Positions 9,826-22,681 of a stretch of 64,000 nucleotides of DNA are shown here, piece after piece. Both the position numbers and the translations under genes were made by a program. The stretch comes from an uncultured Candidatus Puniceispirillum sp. Its GTDB lineage: Bacteria > Pseudomonadota > Alphaproteobacteria > Puniceispirillales > Puniceispirillaceae. The notes under the pieces are model-generated. The model searched no databases. It worked only from the letters and a program-made list of their open reading frames with translations, and was not told where the DNA came from. The DNA is taken from the NCBI GenBank assembly GCA_905182545.1, contig CAJJBY010000001.1, positions 62,001-126,000 on the forward strand, read 5' to 3'. Position 1 is the first letter of the stretch. Each line of letters opens with the position of its first letter.

Positions 9826-10671
9826 TTATTTAAGAACCGCGAAACTCTTCATTGCTTCACCATGCAACAGATCCATGGCCTGCCGCTTGTATTTAAAGGC
9901 TTTAGCTGTAGTTAACATTTTATAATTACGGGGCCGCGGCAGATCAATTTTGATCACTGTCTGAACAGAAGTGGGTTTATTTGAGAGAATAACTAAGTTG
10001 TCTGCCAAGAAAATAGCTTCATCAATCTCCGAAGTCACAAAAATGTTGGTTTTTTGGTTTTCTTCAAAAAGCTCAAGGAAGAATTCTTGCATCAAGCTTC
10101 GAGACATTGCATCAAGGCCACGAAAAGGCTCGTCCATAATCATAACGGTTGGCTCATTTATTAGCGCTCTTGCTAATTCAGCCCGCCTTTGCATGCCACC
10201 TGAAAGCTGGATTGGGAATTTATTCATAAATTCTCCAAGGCCAACTTTTATTAACAAGTCTTCTGCCTCTTTTTGTAAAGATGCCCCTTTTTTTTCTCCC
10301 CGCATTTTGGGGCCAAAAGTGACGTTTTCAATAGTTGTTTGCCATGGTATGAGAGCAGTCTCTTGAAAAACCACCATTCTATCCTTAGCTGGTCCAGTTA
10401 TGGGCTTTCCATTTACCAGCACCTGGCCTTCATCTGGAGTTTCGAAACCTGCTAGCAAGTTTACTAGCGTTGACTTTCCACATCCGGAGGGGCCAACAAT
10501 TACCGTTAATTCTCCAGCAGGGAAATCAACAGAAATATTCTTAAGAACATCTTCTGACGCCCATTCTTCACCGTAGGATTTGCTGATACCTTTTAATGAT
10601 ACTGATGAACTATCTGATTTTTTGGGCCGACGGGCATTTGATACCCCACTTTTTAATTTTGTCGTAGCCAT
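9826..10671 (-). CDS. Nitrate/sulfonate-type ABC importer ATPase A, switch histidine replaced by serine
   Basis: A 281-residue ATPase of the SsuB/TauB/NrtD class. Walker A G-P-S-G-C-G-K-S-T is at 60-68, the Q-loop V-V-F-Q at 100-103, the canonical signature L-S-G-G-M at 156-160, and Walker B M-D-E-P at 179-182 with the catalytic Glu181. The H-loop, normally V-T-H-D, reads V-T-S-E at 212-215, so the switch histidine is Ser214. The companion ATPase at 11606-12475 has the histidine but a weakened signature. The pair therefore looks like an asymmetric ATPase heterodimer with one good and one degenerate site. It is the most distal gene of the importer cluster. Confidence 0.83.
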   Translation of the reverse strand: MATTKLKSGVSNARRPKKSDSSSVSLKGISKSYGEEWASEDVLKNISVDFPAGELTVIVGPSGCGKSTLVNLLAGFETPDEGQVLVNGKPITGPAKDRMVVFQETALIPWQTTIENVTFGPKMRGEKKGASLQKEAEDLLIKVGLGEFMNKFPIQLSGGMQRRAELARALINEPTVMIMDEPFRGLDAMSRSLMQEFFLELFEENQKTNIFVTSEIDEAIFLADNLVILSNKPTSVQTVIKIDLPRPRNYKMLTTAKAFKYKRQAMDLLHGEAMKSFAVLK

Positions 10672-10730
10672 GAAATTTCTCCGGTCATTCCTAAAGTCCG
10701 TTTTTTAGTGTTTTGTTATCGGCGGTTGCT

Positions 10731-11543
10731 CTAAAAAAGCCGACGCCAGGGCATGAAGTGAAACCCTATTTTCCTTATCGCGCTCGATGATAAGTAACCG
10801 GCAATTCCGATAGAAATCATCCCAACAATAATCTGTTCTAAGGATCCTCCCATGTAAGAACTCCAAATAAAGAAGCCAAGTCCGCCACCACCTTGAGTTC
10901 CGCCACCTGAAATCATTTCTGCGGCCAAGACGACTTCCCAAGTAATTCCCATGCCAACAGCGGCGCCTGTGAAAATGGATGGTAGAGTTCCCGGTAGAAC
11001 TATTTTCCAGAAAAGATCGAACTGGCTAGCCCCCATCGATTGAGCCGCTCTCAAATAACTGATGTCAATGTTTCGCGCTCCGCCCAAAACGTTAATCACA
11101 ATTGTAAAAAAGGCTCCAAGAAAGGTTACAAATGCAATGGACATTTCATTAGTTGGCCAAAAAATTAGCGATGCTGGAACCCATGCAAGCGGCGGTATGG
11201 GCCTGAGGATTTCAAATGGAGGAAAAAAGACGCCCCGAAAATAACGATTCACAGCTAACAACAACCCAAATGGTATTCCCACAAGCATTGCAACTAAAAA
11301 GCCGGTGATTACTCGGCTAAAGCTTGCAACCCAGCTCATCCAATACCCAGTTTTTGGCATCACGCCTAAAAACGCGGTGAAAACGTCCACAGGTGGGGGA
11401 ACCAGGCCGATTCCTAGTAAATCGTAACCAGTCCACTCATCGAGTTGAGATCCGATGTGCCAAATAAACAAAAAAATAATGATTGCGCCAAAACCACGTC
11501 TGGTTGTCGTATTACTGAAAAGCGCTTGAAGATAATTCATCAT
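10731..11543 (-). CDS. ABC importer permease (TauC/SsuC/NrtB type)
   Basis: A 270-residue inner-membrane permease with about six transmembrane segments. The BPD_transp_1 core includes L-R-P-I-P-P-L-A-W-V-P-A, a hallmark of aliphatic-sulfonate, taurine and nitrate importers, and the EAA-like loop S-M-G-A-S with I-V-L-P-G-T-L-P. It lies between the two ATPase genes in the leftward cluster. It most likely forms a heterodimeric channel with the permease at 12509-13390. Sulfonate specificity is inferred from the neighbouring oxygenase, not from the permease itself. Confidence 0.85.
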   Translation of the reverse strand: MMNYLQALFSNTTTRRGFGAIIIFLFIWHIGSQLDEWTGYDLLGIGLVPPPVDVFTAFLGVMPKTGYWMSWVASFSRVITGFLVAMLVGIPFGLLLAVNRYFRGVFFPPFEILRPIPPLAWVPASLIFWPTNEMSIAFVTFLGAFFTIVINVLGGARNIDISYLRAAQSMGASQFDLFWKIVLPGTLPSIFTGAAVGMGITWEVVLAAEMISGGGTQGGGGLGFFIWSSYMGGSLEQIIVGMISIGIAGYLSSSAIRKIGFHFMPWRRLF

Positions 11544-11605
11544 TGTTGCCTCGGTTGCATTTTTAGTTTGTCCATCAATAAGACATATCGTTGAAAATAT
11601 ATAAT

Positions 11606-12475
11606 TTAGGCCATTTCTCTTTCGCCTGCTTTAAAGGCTTTTACTGCTTCCTCGTGAACAGCGTCATTAACTTCCACAAGAAGTTTTCTGAACTTTTCAG
11701 ATGACTGAGTCTCATAGGAACGCGGGCGAGGTATCTTCACTTCTACAGTCTTCTTAAGTTGGCAAGGGCGAGTTGTGACAATGTGTACTTTGTCTCCAAG
11801 GAAAATTGCCTCTTCCAAGTCATGCGTAATAAAGAAAATTGTAACGCCAGTACGATCGTATGTTTCAAGCAGAGACTCGTGCATAATTTGCTTTGTTAAG
11901 GCGTCCATCGCACGATAAGGTTCATCCAATAAAAGAACCTTTGGGTTGTTAATCAAAGCTCTTACAATTTCGGCGCGCCTCGCCATTCCTGATGAGACTT
12001 CACCGGGAAATTTCTTAATGAAATTACCTAATCCAGCCTCAGCTAGCATTTGCCCACCCTTTTCCATCGCTTGTGAAGGGGACAAAGCTTTTTGAACGGT
12101 AGGGCCGTAGGCGACATTCTCCTGTAATGTCTTCCATGGAAAAAGGGCGCCATGCTGAAATACGACCATTCGTTCAGCGCTTTGTTCAGCCTTTGGTCTT
12201 TCTGGCCCACAAAGCAATTCACCATCTAAGTGAATGCTACCTTCGGTTATTGAATGAAAGCCCGCAATTGCATTTAGTAGAGTGGTTTTGCCACATCCAG
12301 ATGGACCAACGATCATGCAAACTTCACCAGCGGCTATTTCCATGGAGCAGTTGTCAACGGCCATTACATTTACGCCGGTTGGGTCATAAATTTTAGTGAC
12401 GTTTTTAATGCTCAACGCACCTTTTTTTTCAGTTTTTGAGGTGTTTTTAGCCATTGGTTCTTCTTTCATGTTCAC
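11606..12475 (-). CDS. Nitrate/sulfonate-type ABC importer ATPase B, degenerate signature motif
   Basis: A 289-residue ATPase of the same class as the 281-residue partner. Walker A G-P-S-G-C-G-K-T-T is at 57-65, Walker B L-D-E-P at 183-186 and the switch histidine in T-H-D at 217-219. The signature normally reading L-S-G-G-Q is V-S-S-G-M at 160-164. Combined with the partner's lost switch histidine, one composite ATP site should be canonical and the other degenerate. Possible starts are GTG 12475, ATG 12469 and ATG 12454; the last has the better purine-rich leader (AAGAAG), so the N-terminus is uncertain by seven residues. It is co-directional with both permeases. Confidence 0.83.
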   Translation of the reverse strand: MNMKEEPMAKNTSKTEKKGALSIKNVTKIYDPTGVNVMAVDNCSMEIAAGEVCMIVGPSGCGKTTLLNAIAGFHSITEGSIHLDGELLCGPERPKAEQSAERMVVFQHGALFPWKTLQENVAYGPTVQKALSPSQAMEKGGQMLAEAGLGNFIKKFPGEVSSGMARRAEIVRALINNPKVLLLDEPYRAMDALTKQIMHESLLETYDRTGVTIFFITHDLEEAIFLGDKVHIVTTRPCQLKKTVEVKIPRPRSYETQSSEKFRKLLVEVNDAVHEEAVKAFKAGEREMA

Positions 12476-12508
12476 ATTAATTTAGTTCAATCGTTATAGT
12501 ACTTCAGG

Positions 12509-13390
12509 TTATCGTCCCTGTTGAGCAAGTTCTTTAACATGCCAGCCCATAAGTTTGTCGCCGAGAGCACGAACACACGCAGAGCTAAAATAGCCAATGA
12601 ACCCAAGGGTGATCATTGCGATGACCATAGGCACTGTTACGTTATTCATGTATGCGTCAACGATCAGATACCCCAAGCCGAGGTCACCAGACACCATTTC
12701 AGCTGCAACAAGGGAAAACCATGCAACTCCTATCGATATTTGAAGGCCAGTAAAAATGAATGGGAGCGCTCCGGGAACGACTACATTTTTGAATACGTCC
12801 CAACGGGATGAACCCAAACAGCCTGCGGCTCTGAAATACTCTTCATCGATTGAGTCGACCCCAAGCATGGCATTAAGCGTTGTGACAAAAAATGATGCTA
12901 GAGTCGCAAGGAAAATAACGGGCCCTTCAAAACCAGGCAATAACAAAATTGATAGCGGCACCCATGCAAGAATTGGAATTGGGCGAAGGAGTTCTATAAC
13001 AGGGAAGAGGTAATCCCTAATCGATCTGGACCAACCCATGAAAAGACCGAGCGGCACGCCAAGGCCAGTCGCGATACCAAACGCTATTAGTATGCGCTGG
13101 CAGCTGACGGAGATATGGTCATAATATTCTGCAGTGAAAATTGAAATTCCCTGAAATGGTGTTGTGGAAAACCAGTCTTTTGAGATTGCCACTGGCCCAG
13201 GCAGCTTGGTAAAGCGCCAGATTTCAAGTCCCTCACACAACACCCAGTAGGTAAAAAGCCATAGGAACACACCAGCAACCGTTAGGTATGGATCTGGACC
13301 AGTAAACTTCTTTTTAACCCTGTAGATGAAAAGGTTGAAGCCTTCGGGTGCAACTGTGGTTGTGTTTGCTGAAGAATTCATTATTTCCAC
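12509..13390 (-). CDS. ABC importer permease (TauC/SsuC/NrtB type)
   Basis: A 293-residue permease with about six transmembrane helices. It contains the family core E-L-L-R-P-I-P-I-L-A-W-V-P and the loop C-L-G-S-S-R-W-D-V-F with V-V-P-G-A-L-P-F-I-F that contacts the ATPase. It is distinct from the permease at 10731-11543, so the importer probably uses a heterodimeric membrane pair matched to two ATPases. It is the first gene after the binding-protein gene, separated by a hairpin that may lower its expression relative to the binding protein. Confidence 0.85.
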   Translation of the reverse strand: MEIMNSSANTTTVAPEGFNLFIYRVKKKFTGPDPYLTVAGVFLWLFTYWVLCEGLEIWRFTKLPGPVAISKDWFSTTPFQGISIFTAEYYDHISVSCQRILIAFGIATGLGVPLGLFMGWSRSIRDYLFPVIELLRPIPILAWVPLSILLLPGFEGPVIFLATLASFFVTTLNAMLGVDSIDEEYFRAAGCLGSSRWDVFKNVVVPGALPFIFTGLQISIGVAWFSLVAAEMVSGDLGLGYLIVDAYMNNVTVPMVIAMITLGFIGYFSSACVRALGDKLMGWHVKELAQQGR

Positions 13391-13541: not shown

Positions 13542-14648
13542 TTACTTAGCTATGATGCGCCCGACTGGTGTCTTCAGACCGCGCTTCTCAAGAACACGCT
13601 CTGCGAACTGACCCATTACGCCCTCAGGACGAATCTGTGCAGCAGCAGCCGGCTTCTTCTTCAAGCTGTAAAGAAACGCAGTTGCATCTTTCAACAATGA
13701 TTTGGCGTCGTCACTGATTGTGAAATCAAGTTGCAACTTTGTTGTGCCCGCCATTGGTGAGTCGTATAGGCTCGCCTTTAAAACTGATTGGTCAATTTGC
13801 TCAGTTTGAGCCTCTGCCATCGCGGCAATCGCGTCGGCATTAGCCGGGTTAGCTACGAACTCTTGAGCGTCAAGCTCGGCCTCTAGCCAGCCCATGACAG
13901 CGTCAGGACGCTGTGAAATCAGGTCATTTAGCATCACCATGAATGCACCATCCTGAAGACCAAAATCCTCACCTGATGCTGCGCGACGAGCAATGCCAGA
14001 CTTGACCATCTTGGTAGCGGTTGGCTCCCAAATGGCTGCCGCATCTAGTTTGCCGGCCCGGAAGTTTGTGGTGATAACTTCAATGTTCTGGTTGAGATAT
14101 TTTGCTGGCTTTACGCCTGCTGACTTGAAAGCGGCTTGAGCAAATCTGTCAGTACAAGCGCCGTGAGGTGCGGATGTTATTTTTCCGTCCATCCACTTCA
14201 CAGCTGCGGTGCCGTCAGCAAATTTAGGCGCGTCATTTCTCACGAGGAAAATGTTGCACTGCTGCTTTGATGTGCCAAGGGCGGCAACGATGCGAATGTC
14301 TGTGCCACCACGCTCAGGCAAATATTTAAATGTGGAAGCAATTGCAGGCATGTCACCCATGTAACCAATGTGCTGCTTTTCTCCAGCCATTGCATTCACG
14401 ATAACTGAGCCCTGGAGCCCGACCTGAAATTCAGCTGTAGATCCAGCTGGCAAATGCTTTTTCCAAAAGCTTTTCCCGTTATTAACTACTCCTGTCCAAG
14501 ACTCGGTGTAATACGGCTGGTAGCCGATTACCAAGTTAACAGCTTCGCCTCTTTTTCCAAAATCGACGCCAGCACTGGCGGCCGATGCCCCCATTACGAC
14601 AGCACCCAACGCTGCCATTTTAACAGATGTTTTTAAAATATTAATCAT
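13542..14648 (-). CDS. Periplasmic substrate-binding protein of nitrate/sulfonate-type importer
   Basis: A 368-residue periplasmic binding protein of the NMT1/SsuA/TauA superfamily. Residues 1-26 form a Sec signal (basic start, hydrophobic core, A-S-A cleavage region). The body shows the family's N-lobe pattern (L-V-I-G-Y-Q-P-Y-Y), a ligand-cleft stretch Y-M-G-D-M-P-A and the R-A-G-K-L-D-A-A-A-I-W-E-P segment. It is the first gene of the leftward importer operon and is divergent from the Rieske oxygenase operon, which suggests the same compound is captured and then oxygenated. Methanesulfonate is my leading ligand. Other small sulfonates, taurine or nitrate cannot be excluded from sequence alone. 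Confidence 0.85.
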   Translation of the reverse strand: MINILKTSVKMAALGAVVMGASAASAGVDFGKRGEAVNLVIGYQPYYTESWTGVVNNGKSFWKKHLPAGSTAEFQVGLQGSVIVNAMAGEKQHIGYMGDMPAIASTFKYLPERGGTDIRIVAALGTSKQQCNIFLVRNDAPKFADGTAAVKWMDGKITSAPHGACTDRFAQAAFKSAGVKPAKYLNQNIEVITTNFRAGKLDAAAIWEPTATKMVKSGIARRAASGEDFGLQDGAFMVMLNDLISQRPDAVMGWLEAELDAQEFVANPANADAIAAMAEAQTEQIDQSVLKASLYDSPMAGTTKLQLDFTISDDAKSLLKDATAFLYSLKKKPAAAAQIRPEGVMGQFAERVLEKRGLKTPVGRIIAK

Positions 14649-14960: not shown

Positions 14961-17351
14961 ATGGATTTCATAGAAAACAACTCTGACGCTCAAACCAACA
15001 GTGATCAGTCAAATATTTCCGATAAAGTCGCGGCCAAGGCGTTAGACAAAGGTTTCATCGAGGAACAATCAAGGATCTTTAAAAATACTTGGATTCCAGT
15101 ATGCCACGAGTCTGAACTGCCTGATCCATATGACTTTCGCACATCAAGCATTGGCAATGAGAATGTAATCATTTGCCGAGCGCCGGACGGAAAAGTAAAC
15201 GCGCTTTTAAACGTTTGTCCTCACAGAGGAATGCTAATTGAGCGGCGACCGCAGGGTAGTTTCCTTGAGGGGCAAGCATCAGGTAATCCAAAACGAATCA
15301 CCTGCATGTTTCACGCTTGGCAATTTGATATGAGAGGCAACTGCGTATACGTGGCTCGTGAGAAAGAAGGCTATCAGGATAGGTTTTGTAAGGATGATGC
15401 GGGCCTGCGAAGGTTGCGGTGCGAAGTCAATTACGGTGGGTTTGTTTGGGTGAATATGAACGATCAGCCAGCCATTTTCCTCGAGGAATGGGCCGGAGCC
15501 GCATTTTCGGCAATTGAATCGCAGATTTGCTCTGCACCGCTCGAGGTCGTCCACTATCACAAGGAAGTCGTGGACACAGGTTATCAACAATTAATGTCTC
15601 AAGATTTTGGGTCGATTGCTGGCGACGCAAACGCCGCTAATCTTGACTATGGGCACATCGTAACAAGACATGGTGAAGTTGAAAATAACGATCCAAGTCA
15701 GACAAGCTCTTTCCCTTCCCCAGAGTCCGGACAATCCACAAGCGTCAGGCTTTTCCCCGGCTTTGCATTTCACCTTGATGGACCTACCTTAAATGTGGCT
15801 ACCATTACTCCCTTGAACGATAGTCAAGTAATGATTGAGCATCGGGGGTTGGCGCCCAAAGCAGACAGTGAAGAAGAGAGAAAGCTGCGGTCTAAACACT
15901 ATAACGCCAAGTTTGGGCCCTTCCGATTGCAAAAAATGCCAGAGCCTAATGAGAGCGTATCCGGCAAGGTTGAAGAGAATGGTTTGTTCATCCATTATAA
16001 CAATGAATGGTTGCGGTGGATGGATCAGCATCCAAACGGTGAGACACGTATTTCAGAGTTTCCTAGCTCACATTCCAAAACTCAGGGACTTAGTGAGAAT
16101 GGCGAGCTTTCTGGGCCTCATATTGTGGTGATTGGAGCGAGTCACGCTGGTGTGGCTTTTGTGGATAAGGTCCGAAAAAATGGTTTTGGTGGTCGTTTGA
16201 CTGTCTTTGACCGTCAGGTTGGTGGGCCAATGGAACGACCACCCCTCTCAAAAGCCTTTCTGCTAGGGGGAGGTGAGACGGTTGAGTCGAAGTCACTTTT
16301 GAGACAAAAGAAGTGGTATAAGACCAACAAAATTAAACTCAAAACGCAGTCCAACGTTGAGGCAATTGATACAAAGAAAAAGACGATAACAGTTAGCAGC
16401 GGCGCGGTCATAAATTACGACAACCTAGTGATTGCCAGCGGTGCGATTCCACGTGAACTGCCTGACACCCATGGGATGGGCAATGCTTTTACGTTGCGTC
16501 AACCGTCTGATGCAAATGCGATTCGCCAGGCTGCAAATAACTCTGATACCGTTGTGATTATTGGCGGTGGCTACATTGGGCTTGAGGTTGCAGCCTCTCT
16601 TCGGAAAAAAGGAATGGCAGTAACCGTTATAGAGGCTGCCAAGAGAATTCTAGCAAGGGTTGCCAGTGAGCCACTAGCTGATCGCTTGACGACATTGCAC
16701 GAGGATAATGGGGTACAAGTGCTCACAGGCGTTGGCGTTGATAGTATTAATGCAGAAGATGGTATCTTTGATAGTGTCACACTCACCAGCGGTCAAAAAA
16801 TTGTTGGAGACATGCTGATCACCGGTATTGGTGTTTTCCCCGATAGCAAGTTGGCTGCAGAAGCTGGAATCGAAACGCAGCGAAAAGATGGCGGAGCGAT
16901 TCTCGTTGACGAGACTATGAAAACCAGTGAAGAGGACGTATTTGCCGTGGGTGACGTCGCGTTACGCCGTGACCAGTCGCTGGCTATTGAGTCTGTCCAC
17001 AACGCTCAGGAGACGGCAGCTGTAGCAGCAGCGGCAGTTACCGGATCAATTGCACCAACGTTGCAAACCCCATGGTTTTGGTCCGACCAATATGATGTAA
17101 AACTCCAAATAGTAGGAGTTGTCCCGGTTAGTGATGACGATGTCTATCAGGTTGCCCGGACGGGGAAGCGTGATGGAGCAGTATCTTTTTGGAGCTATCG
17201 AGGCAAGGAATTAGTGGCGGTTGAGGTTGTGAACGATCCTGCAACTTACATGGAAGCGCGGCAATGCTTAGATACAGGACAATCGCCAGATCCAGAGCAG
17301 ATATCTAGCTTGTCGTTTTCTCCCATAGATAGTGGTGGGGCGCGATCCTAG
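14961..17351 (+). CDS. Rieske oxygenase alpha subunit lacking the catalytic iron site, fused to an FAD/NAD(P)H reductase
   Basis: A 796-residue fusion. Residues ~30-370 are a ring-hydroxylating-type alpha subunit. The Rieske site is C86-x-H88 and C115-x2-H118, with 26 residues between the pairs, the unusual spacing known from methanesulfonate monooxygenase MsmA. Aligned on conserved D-T-x-Y, the mononuclear-iron histidines of its paralogue at 19632 correspond to Ala220 and Asn224, and the acidic ligand is also absent near 328-331. This half can carry electrons but probably cannot bind catalytic iron. Residues ~387-790 form a ferredoxin-reductase-type flavoprotein with G392-x-S-H-A-G397, G535-G-G-Y-I-G540 and V-G-D at 663-665. 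AAAGG precedes the ATG. The predicted role is passing electrons from NAD(P)H to a neighbouring catalytic subunit. Confidence 0.85.
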   Translation: MDFIENNSDAQTNSDQSNISDKVAAKALDKGFIEEQSRIFKNTWIPVCHESELPDPYDFRTSSIGNENVIICRAPDGKVNALLNVCPHRGMLIERRPQGSFLEGQASGNPKRITCMFHAWQFDMRGNCVYVAREKEGYQDRFCKDDAGLRRLRCEVNYGGFVWVNMNDQPAIFLEEWAGAAFSAIESQICSAPLEVVHYHKEVVDTGYQQLMSQDFGSIAGDANAANLDYGHIVTRHGEVENNDPSQTSSFPSPESGQSTSVRLFPGFAFHLDGPTLNVATITPLNDSQVMIEHRGLAPKADSEEERKLRSKHYNAKFGPFRLQKMPEPNESVSGKVEENGLFIHYNNEWLRWMDQHPNGETRISEFPSSHSKTQGLSENGELSGPHIVVIGASHAGVAFVDKVRKNGFGGRLTVFDRQVGGPMERPPLSKAFLLGGGETVESKSLLRQKKWYKTNKIKLKTQSNVEAIDTKKKTITVSSGAVINYDNLVIASGAIPRELPDTHGMGNAFTLRQPSDANAIRQAANNSDTVVIIGGGYIGLEVAASLRKKGMAVTVIEAAKRILARVASEPLADRLTTLHEDNGVQVLTGVGVDSINAEDGIFDSVTLTSGQKIVGDMLITGIGVFPDSKLAAEAGIETQRKDGGAILVDETMKTSEEDVFAVGDVALRRDQSLAIESVHNAQETAAVAAAAVTGSIAPTLQTPWFWSDQYDVKLQIVGVVPVSDDDVYQVARTGKRDGAVSFWSYRGKELVAVEVVNDPATYMEARQCLDTGQSPDPEQISSLSFSPIDSGGARS

Positions 17352-17458
17352 AGAGGATTTAAGCGGTTTTCTGGAGCCTGTAAGGGCAAAGAAATAACAT
17401 TATCGTAAACGTAGATCTTGATTTTAAATTATCAAACGCGGACTTGGAAAGTAAAAAG

Positions 17459-17959
17459 ATGGAAAATAATTCACTAGTTACTATTGAGAGAAAGATTGAG
17501 AAAATAATTTATCAGGCCGCGCTGGCGCTGGATGAAAATAACTGGGCTGACTGGTTCAAGCTTTGTGATGACTCTTTTTTCTACTCGATAACGTCGTTTA
17601 GCCCCGAAATTGGTAAGGATATGACCTATTTCAGTGGTGATAAAAAAGAGCTAACTGGCCTCATGGACATGCTGCCAAAACATAACACTGATCACTCGCC
17701 ACTTCGCAGGCATACATCTGTTTACACCATAGACATTTCGGAAGATGGCAAAACAGCAGAGGCTGTCAGTTCAGTGGTAATTTATCAAAATTTGCTCGAT
17801 GGGATTAATTCTCATCTCGACTCCGGAGAGAGCAGACTTTTTGTAGTTGGGAAGTATCATGATAAATTTTTGATCAATGATAGTTTACCAAAATTTGTTA
17901 ATCGAGAGACAAAAATAGATAACAGGCGTCTCGATAAAGGCTCGCATTGGCCCCTCTAG
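17459..17959 (+). CDS. Ring-hydroxylating oxygenase beta subunit (MsmB-like)
   Basis: A protein of about 166 residues with the SnoaL-like cone fold of oxygenase beta subunits, a structural partner of alpha subunits. Typical features are the N-terminal I-Y-x-A-A-x-A-L-D-E-N-N-W-A-D-W segment, a central R-R-H-T-S-V-Y-T motif and the S-R-L-F-V-V-G-K-Y-x-D strand. I chose ATG 17459, which has GGAAAG eight bases upstream, over the in-frame TTG 17444. It lies 107 bases after the fused alpha-reductase gene and 70 before the ferredoxin gene. A beta subunit implies an alpha-beta assembly, probably alpha3beta3-like, in which the two alpha types could alternate. Confidence 0.75.
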   Translation: MENNSLVTIERKIEKIIYQAALALDENNWADWFKLCDDSFFYSITSFSPEIGKDMTYFSGDKKELTGLMDMLPKHNTDHSPLRRHTSVYTIDISEDGKTAEAVSSVVIYQNLLDGINSHLDSGESRLFVVGKYHDKFLINDSLPKFVNRETKIDNRRLDKGSHWPL

Positions 17960-18029
17960 ATGGGAACCCTGGCGCCTGGGCGCATTCGACGCCTTCAGTG
18001 ACATTGAATTTATAAAGAGGGTAAAATAC

Positions 18030-18428
18030 ATGACTTGGACAAAAGTCTGTGACAAGAGTGAGATACCAGAAGGCTCAATTAAAAAAGTTTGGGCTCGTAT
18101 TGGTGGTGGGATCCCTATTGCTGTTGCTCACCACAAGAAAGGTTTTGTTGCCATACCCCCAGTCTGTCCTCACCTTGAGGAACCATTGGAAGAGTCTGGC
18201 CTGGTAATGGGTTGTAAGCTTACTTGTACCAAGCATTTGTGGTCATGGGACCTTGAGACTTTGGAGTTGCAGGACGAGGCAGAGTTGCCGCTCAAAACAT
18301 ACGACGTCAAAGTCGAAGGCAGTAATGTAATGGTGTATGTCACTGAGCAACTTGAATATAATTTTGATGAAGATGAAGATATTGATGAGAATACGTTTTT
18401 TGATGATGATGACGATGATGAGTGGTAA
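18030..18428 (+). CDS. Rieske-type ferredoxin with long acidic C-terminal tail
   Basis: A 132-residue soluble Rieske ferredoxin. The cluster ligands are C46-x-H48 and C66-x2-H69 with 17 intervening residues, the normal spacing, unlike the fused alpha subunit's 26. It would carry electrons from the fused flavin reductase to the Rieske centre of the oxygenase. The last 20 residues (113-132) contain 14 Asp/Glu, including six consecutive Asp before E-W, encoded by a GAT/GAC run. This tail is not part of the Rieske fold and could be a docking surface. AGAGGG precedes the ATG. Position and size fit MsmC of methanesulfonate monooxygenase. Confidence 0.88.
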   Translation: MTWTKVCDKSEIPEGSIKKVWARIGGGIPIAVAHHKKGFVAIPPVCPHLEEPLEESGLVMGCKLTCTKHLWSWDLETLELQDEAELPLKTYDVKVEGSNVMVYVTEQLEYNFDEDEDIDENTFFDDDDDDEW

Positions 18429-18581
18429 GCAAGCTCCTTCATAAAAATATTCTGACTAAATTTCACATCGATTGGAACCGTGCTGCAAGGTCAGCAAAAT
18501 GATAGATAGATGTGCTTAACTAAAACGACACCAACATTTGATAGCGTGCTGAAAACTGCAGTTAAAAACTGATGGTACTGA

Positions 18582-19427
18582 TTGAGAGAGAGTTTGTTGA
18601 ACAATTCAAGTCAATGGCCATCTGTAAGCATTTTCGACACGAAACAGTTTAGGCAAGCAAGAATCGAAGCGCATAACGCATTATTTTGGTTGGCTCGGGG
18701 AGCCAACAGTTTCCTAGATGCAGCCCCGAATAATGGGCACCTGAGTCTATTCTGGCACAAAGATTCAAATAATTTTCGAACTAGATCTTTTGACGGCGAT
18801 CTTCAAATTGGCCTGAATTTCCCTGACTTGGAATTGTATTTTTGTGAAGGGGGCCGGAAGGTGCCTCACAGCTTTTGGTTAGACGAGAGAACGCCTGCAT
18901 TTGCAGAGGCGTGGTACTTAGTTGAATTGCTGCATAGGGACCGCGATCAATCAAAATTTTCCACTGTTCTTCCTTTCTCGTCGCCAAATATGTTGATGGG
19001 TGACACTGAAGACCACAAAGCTTCAGTTTATAAACCGGAGCTCGATGCGTTGAATTGTTGCGTGTTGAAAGGAAACGAAATACTCCAGAGTGTGTCGTAC
19101 ACACTTGCCCAACAGCCTGAATTTGCAAAATGTCGGCAATGGATAACGTTAGAACCGGAATTGTTTTCTTTGACGCTAAATGTTAGCGCAGATAACGAGC
19201 TAGTCAAATTGCCTTCAATTGGATTAAGTCTCGGTGACCATTTGCGCCCCGCACCCTTTTTCTTCGTTAAAGACAGTGTAACTAATGGAAGTTCAAAACC
19301 TCACCTACTCGACTACGACCCACAAACTTTGCTGCCATTAAAATCAATCGTTACTGAACCCACGTCTGATGTAGCGCTTGTCAAAAAGCTTGTTAACAAG
19401 TTCACCGAGGTTGATAACGCGAAATAA
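18582..19427 (+). CDS. Unknown protein in the oxygenase operon
   Basis: Up to 281 residues, not recognised. It has no signal peptide, membrane span, metal-binding cysteine pattern or nucleotide-binding loop that I can see. The N-terminal third is rich in aromatic residues (Phe, Trp) and the C-terminal half is alpha/beta-like with many Leu/Pro turns. The frame opens at TTG 18582 directly after a stop, and TTG 18594 or 18597 follow a GAGAGAGAG purine run, so the true start is probably one of those; no ATG occurs in the first hundred codons. It sits between the ferredoxin and the catalytic alpha gene, so an assembly, metallation or substrate-related role in the split oxygenase is a reasonable guess, but unproven. 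Confidence 0.6.
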   Translation: MRESLLNNSSQWPSVSIFDTKQFRQARIEAHNALFWLARGANSFLDAAPNNGHLSLFWHKDSNNFRTRSFDGDLQIGLNFPDLELYFCEGGRKVPHSFWLDERTPAFAEAWYLVELLHRDRDQSKFSTVLPFSSPNMLMGDTEDHKASVYKPELDALNCCVLKGNEILQSVSYTLAQQPEFAKCRQWITLEPELFSLTLNVSADNELVKLPSIGLSLGDHLRPAPFFFVKDSVTNGSSKPHLLDYDPQTLLPLKSIVTEPTSDVALVKKLVNKFTEVDNAK

Positions 19428-19441
19428 TACTCTATATCTAA

Positions 19442-19500
19442 GAAAGTCCATACTTTCAGGCGAGAGTTTTTACCAATATTAGATTTCGGCTATTAGCCGA
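19442..19500. repeat. Two short inverted repeats upstream of the catalytic alpha gene
   Basis: The 204-base gap holds GAAAGT (19442-19447) with ACTTTC (19452-19457) and TCGGCTA (19486-19492) with TAGCCGA (19494-19500). The second is nearly a perfect 15-base palindrome, better as an operator than as a hairpin. The gap may therefore contain a separate promoter for the 362-residue subunit. Confidence 0.35.
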
Positions 19501-19631
19501 TTAGTCCTGTTTTTGAAGATCTTCGTTGACATCTGCGGTGTCAAAATGGCAAATTATTTATATTCGTTGGCTCTTTAAGCAACAAGTGACCGCTTCGACT
19601 GACAACACGTAAATTTAGATGGGAGTGCGAA

Positions 19632-20720
19632 ATGCCACCAAGAAATCATAAAAATTGGTTAAATGCCCCACATATCGAACACATTTCGAGTGAATGCTAC
19701 AATAACCACAGCATTTATGAGCAGGAAATTGAGCATATTTTTGCTAAGGTTTGGGTTCCGATGTGCCACTTTAGCGAAATGTCTAATGACGGTGATTTTC
19801 GTTCATCGCAGATAGCGCACCAAAATGTGGTCGCGGTAAATAATAAGGGCGCCATAAAAGTTTTTCTGTGCCCTTCAATTGACCGCCCTGCCGGTAACGG
19901 CTTGGATACTGTTGGACTGAAGGAACTTCACAGTGAGGTGAAGCACGGCGGCATGGTATGGACAACTCTCGACCCGAATCCAACACAAAGCGTTGAAGAA
20001 TGGACTTGTGGAGCATTTGATTGCATTGCTGAGGCTATCGACACTGAAGAAATGGAAATTTTCCATTATCATAAAGCTGTCATCGACACTAACTATAAAC
20101 TTTGGCATGACACAAACAGTGAGTTCTACCACGATTTTATGCACTATTTTAACCGGGTGTCTGGGTTTAATGATGAATACTTTGCCAGGAAAAACATCCC
20201 GTTTGACAATGGCCACGTAAATGTTAGTAGCTTCACAGTTAACTATGAAGAGTACGATGGCTTTGAAGATCGTGGGGAGTTGTCTTTTCCAAATTTGCCG
20301 CCAAATCAATGGTATATGGTAGACTTGTTCCCAGGTTTTAATTTCAATCTCCGTGGGAGCGCGTACAGGAGCGACACTGTTACGCCGCTTGGTCCAAACA
20401 AGGTACTTATCGAGTTCAGGGGCTATGGTCTAAAAAAAGATACTCCACAAGAGCGTCAGACCCGTATAAAGCACCACAACTCTATATGGGGCCCATTTGG
20501 CCGTAATCTGCATGAAGATTTAATCGGTGTTTCAGGGCAAGGCACAACAATGAGAGAGGGTACTGAAGCCCGCAATATCTTGCATGGTCGCCACGAAAAT
20601 TCAACGATTCATGATGAAGTTGGTATGCGTCACTATTACGAGGCCTGGGGAAGATTCCTCGGAGTATCTCCCGGCAACCCTCTTGGCTTAACGGCAGAGG
20701 AAGTGATTGCTGCTGAATAG
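19632..20720 (+). CDS. Rieske-type oxygenase alpha subunit with catalytic iron site but no Rieske cluster
   Basis: A 362-residue homologue of the N-terminal part of the 796-residue fusion; shared anchors are H-Y-H-K-x-V-x-D-T-x-Y, L-F-P-G-F-x-F and T-P-L-x(4)-V-x-I-E-x-R-G. The Rieske hairpin is gone: only C80-P-S remains where C-P-H is expected, and about 47 residues carrying the second Cys/His pair are deleted. The mononuclear iron set is intact: His167 and His171 (Y-H-D-F-M-H), with Asp296 in H-E-D followed by the usual downstream Gln. It should be the substrate-oxidising subunit, dependent on electrons from the Rieske half of another polypeptide. GGGAG precedes the ATG and a strong terminator follows. 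NdmC of caffeine demethylation is a known precedent for a Rieske-less catalytic subunit. Confidence 0.85.
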   Translation: MPPRNHKNWLNAPHIEHISSECYNNHSIYEQEIEHIFAKVWVPMCHFSEMSNDGDFRSSQIAHQNVVAVNNKGAIKVFLCPSIDRPAGNGLDTVGLKELHSEVKHGGMVWTTLDPNPTQSVEEWTCGAFDCIAEAIDTEEMEIFHYHKAVIDTNYKLWHDTNSEFYHDFMHYFNRVSGFNDEYFARKNIPFDNGHVNVSSFTVNYEEYDGFEDRGELSFPNLPPNQWYMVDLFPGFNFNLRGSAYRSDTVTPLGPNKVLIEFRGYGLKKDTPQERQTRIKHHNSIWGPFGRNLHEDLIGVSGQGTTMREGTEARNILHGRHENSTIHDEVGMRHYYEAWGRFLGVSPGNPLGLTAEEVIAAE

Positions 20721-20813: not shown

Positions 20814-21758
20814 TTAGCTCACTACTGCATTTGCTTTATGATAAAGGAAATTCTGTAGCTCATTGTTTTTTGCAAGAGCACGACCAACTTCTTCAGTTAT
20901 TTTTGTGATTGGAATGGTTGTCTCGGTTTTTACCCAAAACAGTCCTATCCCTTTTCGTATAATTGGGTCCTTTAACAACAGTGCTTTGGTTCCACTATAA
21001 AGGCCAGGCATTCTGGTGTAGTGTGAAGGGATAACCGTGCAAAGTTCTGTGAACTGAGTTTGGAACATCAAATGAAGTATTGATTCTGACTCAATTTTCG
21101 GGACAACGCTCTTTCCTGCAGCCGTGAATGTTTGATCAATTACTGAGCGCTCGTACATTGATTTTCTTAACAAAGCTAGCGGTAGGTCTGCAGCCTCTGC
21201 CCAAGTGATGTCACTCAGGTTCTCAAATTGAAACGAATCTGGCACCAATAAGCTCCAAGTTTCTTCAAAAACTGGCAGGGCCTCACACCAGGGCATTTCA
21301 TCGGATTGGTCTATGTACGTTATGGCGCAATCAATTGAATAATTGTCTAAACTGGTTTTAAGCTCATTGTTTCCAACAAACCTTACATCGACTGAGACTA
21401 GCGGGTATGCTTTTCTTATGCGTTGTAAAATAATCGGTAATACCGGAGACATCGAAGGAATTGCGCCAAGGCGAATAGTTCCACTCAACCTGTCCTGCAT
21501 TTCTTCTATACTGTCTCGCATCGCGGTGCAATTGGCCAGGATTAATCGGGCCCAATAAGCTACACGCTTTCCTTCCTCCGTAATTCCATAAAGACGTTGG
21601 CCGCGCCCTCTCTTAAATAGGGTGACGCCTAATTCAAATTCTAGTTGCTTTATGCCGTTTGATAAGCTGGGTTGTTTAACGCTGCAACGGGCAGCTGCCC
21701 TTCCAAAATGGTCTTCCTCAATAACCGCGATAAGATACTCAAGCTGTTTTAGAAACAT
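20814..21758 (-). CDS. LysR-family transcriptional regulator (candidate sulfonate-island activator)
   Basis: A 314-residue LysR protein. The helix-turn-helix lies at residues ~15-60 (F-G-R-A-A-A-R-C-S-V-K-Q-P-S-L-S-N-G-I-K) and is followed by a periplasmic-binding-like effector domain (S-G-T-I-R-L-G-A-I-P-S at ~92-102). It converges on the catalytic oxygenase gene across a terminator and is divergent from the TSUP exporter. T-N11-A dyads in the importer/oxygenase promoter at 14841-14879 could be its targets. The effector could be the sulfonate or sulfite, but nothing in the sequence decides this. Confidence 0.85.
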   Translation of the reverse strand: MFLKQLEYLIAVIEEDHFGRAAARCSVKQPSLSNGIKQLEFELGVTLFKRGRGQRLYGITEEGKRVAYWARLILANCTAMRDSIEEMQDRLSGTIRLGAIPSMSPVLPIILQRIRKAYPLVSVDVRFVGNNELKTSLDNYSIDCAITYIDQSDEMPWCEALPVFEETWSLLVPDSFQFENLSDITWAEAADLPLALLRKSMYERSVIDQTFTAAGKSVVPKIESESILHLMFQTQFTELCTVIPSHYTRMPGLYSGTKALLLKDPIIRKGIGLFWVKTETTIPITKITEEVGRALAKNNELQNFLYHKANAVVS

Positions 21759-21931: not shown

Positions 21932-22681
21932 GTGGCAGTGTCGTTTGTTTTTGTTTTTTTGTGCGGCTTTCTCTCTGGAACTTTGATAGGAGCTGCAGGG
22001 ATTGGCGGTGTGGTTTTGGTGCCACTCCTCGTTTATGGTGCGGGCTACAGTATTCATATCAGTATCGCAGCGGCAGTTTCATCTTTTATTTTTTCGGGTT
22101 TGATTGGTACGTTTGCGTACGCGAAAAGAGGGGAGGTAAATTGGCTTCAACTAACCTATTTGACGGTTGGAGCGGTTCCAGGGGCGTTGGTTGGTACACA
22201 CGCGCTCTCTAGAGTTAACGCTGACTTTCTCATACTCTTCATTGCCACCGTCCTAATTTTAGCTTCATACAAACAGATTGCTAATTTAAAGTTTAAGCGT
22301 CTTCATAACCAATCAACCCCGTCAAATATAAGCTTGTTGTTTGTTGGTTTTTTAACTGCGTGCCTTTCTGTGCTCAGTGGAACCGGTGGGCCGCTAGTTT
22401 TAGTCCCAATATTAACCTTTTTATCGATGCCATTGCTTGCGGTTATCGGATTGTCACAAGCCATCCAGATACCTATTGCTGCATTTGCTACGGTTGGGAA
22501 TGAATGGTCAGGAATAATCCGATGGGAAATTGTGGCTCTATTATCACCAGGTTTAGCTTTAGGGACATTTTTTGGTGCAAAAGCTTCTGAGTACCTGCCA
22601 GTTAACAAGATAAAGAATTTAGTAGCTTTTTTATTGCTTGGTTCTGGCATTTACATGTTGATAAACGTGATTTTTTTTTAG
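21932..22681 (+). CDS. TSUP (TauE/SafE) family membrane exporter
   Basis: A 249-residue membrane protein with seven to eight predicted helices and the duplicated TSUP signature: G-A-A-G-I-G-G-V-V-L-V-P near residue 20 and the second-half G-T-G-G-P-L-V-L-V-P. Family members export or take up sulfite, sulfonates and related anions; TauE and SafE are the named examples. Here the role would be removal of toxic sulfite from sulfonate cleavage, or anion uptake. GTG 21932 and GTG 21938 are both possible starts; the second has TGGAG at better spacing. It follows the LysR gene divergently and leads toward the C1 genes. Confidence 0.82.
   Translation: MAVSFVFVFLCGFLSGTLIGAAGIGGVVLVPLLVYGAGYSIHISIAAAVSSFIFSGLIGTFAYAKRGEVNWLQLTYLTVGAVPGALVGTHALSRVNADFLILFIATVLILASYKQIANLKFKRLHNQSTPSNISLLFVGFLTACLSVLSGTGGPLVLVPILTFLSMPLLAVIGLSQAIQIPIAAFATVGNEWSGIIRWEIVALLSPGLALGTFFGAKASEYLPVNKIKNLVAFLLLGSGIYMLINVIFF

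Follow-up and report, generated by a model that had tools for sequence, protein, structure and literature searches.

Rieske oxygenases transfer electrons between their subunits. We describe here a locus in a 64,000-nucleotide stretch of an uncultured Candidatus Puniceispirillum sp., a marine member of SAR116 (contig CAJJBY010000001.1, positions 62,001 to 126,000, hereafter the window) in which the two metal centers of an enzyme resembling methanesulfonate (MSA) monooxygenase are found on two homologous alpha subunits, a 796-residue fusion with a reductase (FUS) that has the Rieske site and a 362-residue protein (CAT) that has the mononuclear iron site. A comparable division of metal sites is reported for the chlorophyllide a oxygenase (CAO) of Micromonas, which Kunugi reportedly found in 2013 to have the Rieske motif on one chain and the iron motif on the other. 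CAO is likewise a Rieske oxygenase in two polypeptide chains, and it differs from the present system in serving eukaryotic chlorophyll biosynthesis, with neither a reductase fusion nor phage copies in the excerpt of its description (PMC9615114; here and below, statements about cited papers refer to the excerpts available). The 7-methylxanthine demethylase NdmC/NdmD/NdmE of Pseudomonas putida CBB5 resembles the locus in having a catalytic subunit without a Rieske site and the Rieske cluster on the reductase polypeptide; unlike FUS, NdmD has an extra [2Fe-2S] cluster and no whole degenerate alpha subunit, the glutathione S-transferase-like NdmE is required, and the substrate is another one (PMC4408171). 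The present locus further differs in its beta subunit, its separate Rieske ferredoxin and a gene of no assigned family (ORF281), and the excerpt on NdmCDE mentions no phage link. A preliminary description of this DNA had offered NdmC and NdmD as a related precedent for the split, and with the two-chain CAO of Micromonas they are not the sole one.

With canonical MsmABCD the locus shares the 26-residue spacer (X26) of the Rieske motif, which is the published MsmA signature (PMC4433239), as well as the beta subunit, the ferredoxin, and an adjacent msmEFGH-type transporter. It differs in that canonical MsmA has both centers in one chain, with the reductase MsmD encoded by a separate gene in the published operons (PMC4433239). 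Two MsmA proteins have been described in IMCC1322, only one of them with a Rieske motif, and the Rieske-less MsmA sequences of IMCC1322, of phage HMO-2011 and of similar environmental origin have been printed without an account of their function (PMC4433239). The HMO-2011 protein (ADW08429), an orthologue of CAT that differs in being phage-borne, was termed a putative MsmA (PMC4928673), MsmA has been reported in some SAR116 genera (PMC8547437), and the HMO-2011 group is described as a dominant and widespread part of marine viral communities (PMC9038755); the terms methanesulfon-, msmA, MSA and Rieske do not appear in the text of the last paper. The preliminary description knew of no account of a methanesulfonate-type split with the reductase attached. 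For the complementary pair this agrees with the literature searched, but the Rieske-less sequences were already in print. The complementary MsmA split, its fusion, and the repeated loss of the Rieske site in phages were not found in the literature searched, nor was a Rieske-less phage MsmA acting with host subunits; this literature was mostly open-access, and the result is no proof of absence. New here are the viral loci with the catalytic half only as well as the explanation by a complementary pair.

The two open reading frames (ORFs) agree in position and length with what was first described, and comprise the following parts.

14961..17351, + strand: FUS, an MsmA-like alpha subunit (Rieske site, dead iron site) joined to a BphA4/putidaredoxin-reductase-type reductase that uses flavin adenine dinucleotide (FAD) and nicotinamide adenine dinucleotide (NAD), 796 residues
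15051..15455, + strand: FUS Rieske domain, residues 31-165 (PF00355 at residues 43-132)
15216..15314, + strand: FUS Rieske ligand motif C86-X-H88-X26-C115-X2-H118, present in 15/15 FUS rows
15456..16085, + strand: FUS dead catalytic domain, residues 166-375, without iron ligands (from the alignment; identity 0.43)
16116..17315, + strand: FUS reductase domain, residues 386-785, FAD/NAD, ferredoxin-reductase type (PF07992, PF14759)
19632..20720, + strand: CAT, an MsmA-like alpha subunit with an iron site and without a Rieske site, 362 residues
19632..19904, + strand: CAT vestigial Rieske domain, residues 1-91, metal-binding loops absent (from the alignment)
20121..20144, + strand: CAT E164-F-Y-H167-D-F-M-H171, the putative bridging Glu and two iron ligands
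20517..20519, + strand: CAT D296, third iron ligand

The ligands were counted in a single alignment of 178 sequences, with rows grouped as FUS, CAT, viral, and canonical. Among genome contigs of the named collection, the best 80 of 157 confirmed loci comprise 15 cellular split-type, 2 probably phage, and 63 canonical loci, and the 19 CAT rows include L143 and L144, which are probably phage contigs binned in metagenome-assembled genomes (MAGs). All four Rieske ligands (C-H-C-H) are present in 15/15 FUS rows and the iron triad is intact in 0/15, with neither H167 nor E164 in any row, the D296 stretch deleted throughout (15/15), and a His occupying the H171 column in 1/15. CAT shows the reverse, with E164, H167, H171, and D296 in 19/19 rows and Rieske ligands in 0/19, and the viral rows likewise have the iron site (81/81) and no Rieske site (0/81). 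Canonical MsmA has the iron site in 63/63 rows, the Rieske C, H, and C in 63/63, and the last H in 62/63, the remaining row having an X. A canonical alpha subunit combines a Rieske site and a 2-His-1-carboxylate site in one chain; FUS has only the first and CAT only the second, the X26 spacer is found in FUS alone, CAT being without a Rieske motif, and in Pfam CAT matches solely the catalytic domain of ring-hydroxylating oxygenases. The complementary pattern is not due to chance, as it holds in all 15 FUS and 19 CAT rows.

The residues first read in the window were confirmed. FUS has a full Rieske site at C86, H88, C115, and H118 (CXH-X26-CXXH) and is without the acidic third ligand, and CAT keeps H167, H171, and D296, with E164 besides. 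The loss of about 47 residues claimed for CAT agrees with the roughly 50 that separate its residues 1-350 from residues 1-403 of a canonical MsmA (L148), to which they align. A220 and N224 of FUS are present as described, but they cannot be read as simple substitutions for H167 and H171: since FUS has a shortened, drifting iron-binding helix and is without the D296 stretch, pairing A220 with H167 is arbitrary. In the genome G015 (a single contig of 2,753,527 bases, with both FUS and CAT) FUS has KFHQDFMK where the CAT-type sequence is EFYHDFMH, and it seems to represent an earlier stage of decay.

The pair is conserved as a pair. CAT was found at 85-100% identity in 12/61 genomes of the family, and the same 12 carry FUS, in one of them (G028) as pieces at contig ends. 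The remaining 49/61 have no CAT or FUS of comparable score, though some give weak matches to other Rieske oxygenases; at E <= 0.001 CAT is matched in 19/61 and the FUS oxygenase half in 48/61, the 12 counted standing far above the rest. Order-wide, CAT is matched in 13/136 genomes at E <= 1e-20, and in the thirteenth (G128) a single 424-residue ORF matches CAT as well as residues 34-322 of FUS, which is the behavior expected of a canonical MsmA. The two proteins could instead be independent enzymes, FUS rebinding iron elsewhere or acting alone and CAT using another Rieske protein, for which the displaced His in the degraded helix of the G015 protein and the one FUS row with His in the H171 column may be cited. 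We regard this as very unlikely, since FUS and CAT occur together in all 12 family genomes that carry either, the third-ligand segment is deleted in 15/15 FUS rows, the mean identity of the FUS iron-site region is 0.36 vs. 0.90 for the Rieske domain, and two of the four Rieske-family matches in the window's genome lie outside the msm cluster, in ORFs of 166 and 222 residues.

Constraint on the two proteins differs by domain. Among 11 full FUS proteins (55 pairs) the mean pairwise identity is 0.90 for the Rieske domain, 0.43 for the dead catalytic domain, and 0.75 for the reductase, and among 13 CAT proteins (78 pairs) it is 0.80 for the vestigial N-terminus and 0.92 for the catalytic domain. 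The ratio of nonsynonymous to synonymous substitution rates (dN/dS) in close pairs is 0.010-0.021 for the FUS Rieske domain (5 of 6 pairs computable), 0.029-0.067 for the reductase (6 of 6), 0.010-0.034 for the CAT catalytic domain (3 of 7), and 0.075-0.217 for the FUS dead domain (5 of 6), with 0.19-0.22 in the three pairs with dS < 1. The Rieske half of FUS is strongly constrained and its dead catalytic half drifts, the latter being relaxed yet not free, as is expected of a scaffold. Many of the relatives are single-cell genomes or MAGs, which might suggest a dying gene pair or an artefact of assembly or binning. Such an origin is scarcely credible given the strong purifying selection on each retained center and the presence of both halves in the single-contig genome G015; moreover, among the 15 cellular split-type loci (11 of them, judged by length, on the same contigs as the G-numbered genomes) 10 show FUS or part of it, and the other 5 stretches end short of it.

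Several individual loci deserve mention. G025 carries the split system twice, on separate contigs (L043, L044). In G029 the fusion (L045:16189-18572, one of the 15 FUS rows) is read as two ORFs of 330 and 465 residues with the junction at the oxygenase/reductase boundary, which is either a natural separation or a sequencing frameshift. Two MAGs titled Planktomarina and Marinovum (L135, L137) have split clusters that group with SAR116, and these are probably binning or naming errors.

The remaining genes of the locus are listed below.

17444..17959, + strand: beta subunit, MsmB-like (SnoaL_4 barely above the cut-off, Ring_hydroxyl_B below it)
18030..18428, + strand: Rieske-type ferredoxin, MsmC-like (PF00355)
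18582..19427, + strand: ORF281, no family assigned, adjoining split and some canonical msm clusters
13542..14648, - strand: MsmE-like sulfonate-type substrate-binding protein (NMT1_2; TIGR01728 below the cut-off)
9826..13390, - strand: two ATP-binding cassette (ABC) permease/ATPase pairs of an MsmFGH-like transporter (translations read, conserved synteny)
20814..21758, - strand: LysR regulator (Pfam)
21932..22681, + strand: TauE/SafE-family exporter (Pfam)

The beta subunit, the Rieske-type ferredoxin, and ORF281 are all located between FUS and CAT, and the beta subunit is 47-69% identical to genes adjoining canonical MsmA. Alpha, beta, ferredoxin, and reductase are all represented, the alpha subunit being split and the reductase fused, and a sulfonate-type ABC transporter is adjacent, with an SsuA-family match below the curated cut-off. 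In published msm regions msmABCD is divergent from msmEFGH, with LysR and TauE genes near, and the window locus resembles these regions (PMC4433239). For ORF281 (25 members), considered also as a possible counterpart of NdmE, a Pfam search gave no match better than E 0.11. Its AlphaFold model is confident, with a mean predicted local distance difference test (pLDDT) score of 87.2; Foldseek found no match to the model at E <= 0.001, and of 989 chains compared by VIA-align none reached Z >= 5, neither of which proves a new fold. ORF281 is not specific to the split, because a relative (29.6-36.8% identity) was found in the fetched stretch of 13/63 canonical loci.

The likely ancestry of the fusion was approached through a Rieske-domain tree of 67 rows (15 FUS and 52 of the 63 canonical), in which FUS forms one group (support 100/99) apart from the 52 canonical MsmA. 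Two canonical MsmA loci (L146, L177) encode a separate reductase that shares 52-57% identity with the reductase domain of FUS, and these are plausible forerunners of the fusion. In the SAR116 MAG MED-G04 (L160) a canonical MsmA adjoins an MsmE 92% identical to that of the window, which points to a possible replacement of the canonical gene by the split at the same locus.

How two such subunits could work together is suggested by CntA, in which the two centers are 44 Å apart within a subunit and 12.2 Å apart between neighbors, with Glu205 bridging (PMC7948474). Given this geometry, an iron-only subunit beside a Rieske-only subunit can complete one electron path. By its motif, with the Glu three residues before the first His, E164 of CAT appears to be the equivalent of Glu205, and it is kept in CAT and lost in FUS. 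We therefore propose an MSA-monooxygenase-type Rieske oxygenase with its two metal centers divided between two homologous alpha subunits. NADH would reduce the FAD domain of FUS, the electron would then pass to the Rieske ferredoxin and on to the Rieske center of FUS, cross the subunit interface via Glu164 to the mononuclear iron of CAT in a mixed ring, and the CAT iron would oxidize the substrate, probably methanesulfonate. FUS would give no catalytic iron and CAT no Rieske center, and neither should work alone. We infer the mixed assembly and the electron path, and we put the probability of this model, including phages that supply the CAT half to host subunits, at about 0.78. The initial suggestion of two one-function alpha subunits is supported by the complementary ligand loss, the co-occurrence, the glutamate kept in CAT only, and the domain-specific constraint.

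The phages in question, on which the preliminary description is silent, carry the catalytic half alone. HMO-2011, which infects IMCC1322, has a CAT orthologue with 73% identity over 97% of the query, annotated as MsmA, in which the iron site is kept and the Rieske site is absent; terminase and portal genes lie nearby, and no partner gene is annotated in 13 kb. Across 50,697 phage records the matches to CAT were confined to two HMO-2011 records, FUS queries matched HMO-2011 at the CAT gene only, and the beta subunit and ferredoxin gave no match. A pattern scan of IMG/VR found 543 relatives among the first 600 matches listed. In all, 256 viral loci were gathered from the matches listed in the viral scans (2.44 Mb of slices, some overlapping or from the same contig), with the iron motif in frame in 253/256. 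All 236 copies listed that have at least 150 residues upstream of the iron motif are without a Rieske site (192 distinct proteins), and outside this count are 17 copies with fewer than 150 residues before the motif and 3 loci that have none in frame. At E <= 1e-3, 0/256 of the viral loci listed gave a match to the FUS reductase, beta subunit, ferredoxin, ORF281, or MsmE, and the FUS Rieske-domain query matched 249 viral loci with 262/262 segments inside the CAT gene.

The absence of the Rieske site was also examined at the DNA level. On viral contigs exact patterns gave 0 matches for the MsmA Rieske motif and at least 120 for the iron site. As controls, the Rieske pattern finds 51/63 canonical and 14/14 FUS loci and the iron-site pattern 30/63 canonical loci; the zero is strong rather than absolute, because about one fifth of canonical copies could escape the pattern. 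A second scan with patterns taken outside the Rieske motif gave 64 loci, with the iron motif in 61/64 (it is missing from the slice in L235, L268, and L273). A loose Rieske regular expression hit 5 viral loci (L217, L242-L245) at sequences unlike a Rieske site. Ribonucleotide reductase, DNA primase, and tail tape-measure protein are neighbors in L217, and of six neighbors scanned in L239 three have PHROG family matches and three have none.

Phages most likely supply the CAT-type half only, which would plug into the host's Rieske-bearing subunit, ferredoxin, and reductase, and the activity of these copies would depend on that step. The partner would be FUS in SAR116 and intact MsmA in gammaproteobacteria. 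Copies without a Rieske site that are conserved at all iron ligands make sense if a host subunit supplies the electrons, and the phage data in this way lend independent support to electron supply between subunits. The MAGs that hold the CAT genes of L143 and L144 are assigned to Rickettsiales and Hellea, but both genes stand among the viral copies in a quick tree of 139 rows, which took in one of every three viral rows from the first scan, HMO-2011, and one of every two among 58 second-scan rows; L143 has phage-type ribonucleotide reductase genes near CAT, which suggests that these are phage contigs.

A more careful catalytic tree of 103 rows was made from 52/63 canonical sequences (without L187 and ten near copies), 17/19 CAT (without L143 and L144), 17 of the 81 viral rows, and 17 of 18 second-scan picks. 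Here, as in the quick tree, Rieske-less sequences stand at three places, one clade that includes SAR116 CAT and HMO-2011 (100/100) and two viral groups nested in gammaproteobacterial canonical MsmA. The approximately unbiased (AU) test rejected a common loss of the Rieske site in all 51 Rieske-less rows (p-AU 0.0103) but did not reject one shared by the two gammaproteobacterial-type phage groups (p-AU 0.257). We therefore count at least two losses, although there are three places in the tree.

The sources of the gammaproteobacterial-type phage copies were traced in both parts of the protein. L237 shares 91% identity with a canonical MsmA over the catalytic part and 73% upstream of the Rieske cysteine, while the stretch in between lacks the metal-binding loops, and the catalytic part of the L210 group is 81-85% identical to gammaproteobacterial-type MsmA. 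In the N-terminal stretch the L237 type is 72-75% and L210 65% identical to gammaproteobacterial MsmA, which supports such a source for both. The best N-terminal matches of L212 and L217, both of the L210 group, are alphaproteobacterial or equal (64% to L153; 59% to L176 and L168), and the N-terminal evidence is mixed because these two are not clearly closest to gammaproteobacterial MsmA. The phage protein is matched in 14/33 genomes of the family to which the Thioglobus genome of L202 belongs, in 13 of them by ORFs of 423-451 residues and in G163 by one cut at a contig end; 10 of the 13 loci were read, and in 10/10 the matching ORF itself contains the X26 Rieske motif. There was no short Rieske-less ORF among the matches in these 33 genomes. 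In the SAR116 group the phage rows as one clade were not rejected (p-AU 0.177) and host CAT forms one group with support 75/86, so the transfer between host and phage may have gone either way.

These results bear on another arrangement, in which FUS is a mobile electron donor to a CAT homotrimer (with beta) and its Rieske domain or the ferredoxin docks at the place of the Rieske domain lost from CAT, as proposed for NdmD and NdmC. NdmCDE is described with an extra Rieske cluster on the reductase (PMC4408171), FUS is likewise a reductase fusion, and the constrained vestigial segment of about 91 residues in CAT might form a surface for docking. However, FUS has kept a recognizable oxygenase domain under purifying selection (dN/dS 0.19-0.22), for which a plain donor would have no use. 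Rieske-less phage copies also derive from MsmA of gammaproteobacteria, and with both centers in one chain in the cellular relatives of that protein this would favor mixed alpha rings. We consider the donor arrangement improbable, if by some way the most arguable alternative to a mixed ring.

The split-alpha model has weaknesses of its own, and the following points count against it. The vestigial N-terminus of CAT is not relaxed (dN/dS 0.017-0.042, 5 of 7 pairs), and it is constrained for a role outside the proposed model. Many of the dS values behind the ratios given above are near or past saturation, or were non-computable in several pairs. In some genomes CAT is not next to FUS: the distance is about 7 kb in G015 and, across the transporter genes, about 11 kb in G029 and in each of the two copies of G025. 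A three-membered ring of FUS and CAT can have one productive interface only, which is a cost of the model. The AlphaFold model of FUS is fair (mean pLDDT 75.7, predicted template modeling score 0.47, parts of the Rieske loops below 50), and as a single chain it carries no ring information. The substrate, probably methanesulfonate, is judged from synteny and the X26 signature. As to structural comparisons, reductases, with Z up to 42.3, took up the list for the FUS model, so that it did not probe the oxygenase half, and a phmmer search of CAT against solved structures gave distant alpha subunits only (best E 2e-07).

Taken jointly, the host and phage data lend themselves to a broader reading, toward which we lean slightly. 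Marine phages may have repeatedly excised the Rieske loops of MsmA, since electrons cross between subunits and a host alpha subunit can supply them. The half-subunit would insert into host rings, even those of hosts with intact MsmA, redirecting or boosting methanesulfonate oxidation during infection. The SAR116 split may then be where this process came to rest, with a Rieske-less half (perhaps acquired from a phage) retained by the host and the original MsmA deprived of its iron site and fused to the reductase.

The locus offers a natural experiment on inter-subunit electron transfer, with evolution having removed one metal center from each of two homologous chains. It also offers an explanation of why the MsmA of HMO-2011 is without a Rieske site, the very lack that made its annotation doubtful, and it suggests an unusual phage metabolic gene that encodes half a catalytic unit and is dependent on the host for the other half. 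The finding matters for the ocean sulfur cycle and for the use of msmA as a marker, as counts will be wrong both in surveys that accept only sequences with a Rieske motif and in those that take every MsmA for a whole enzyme.

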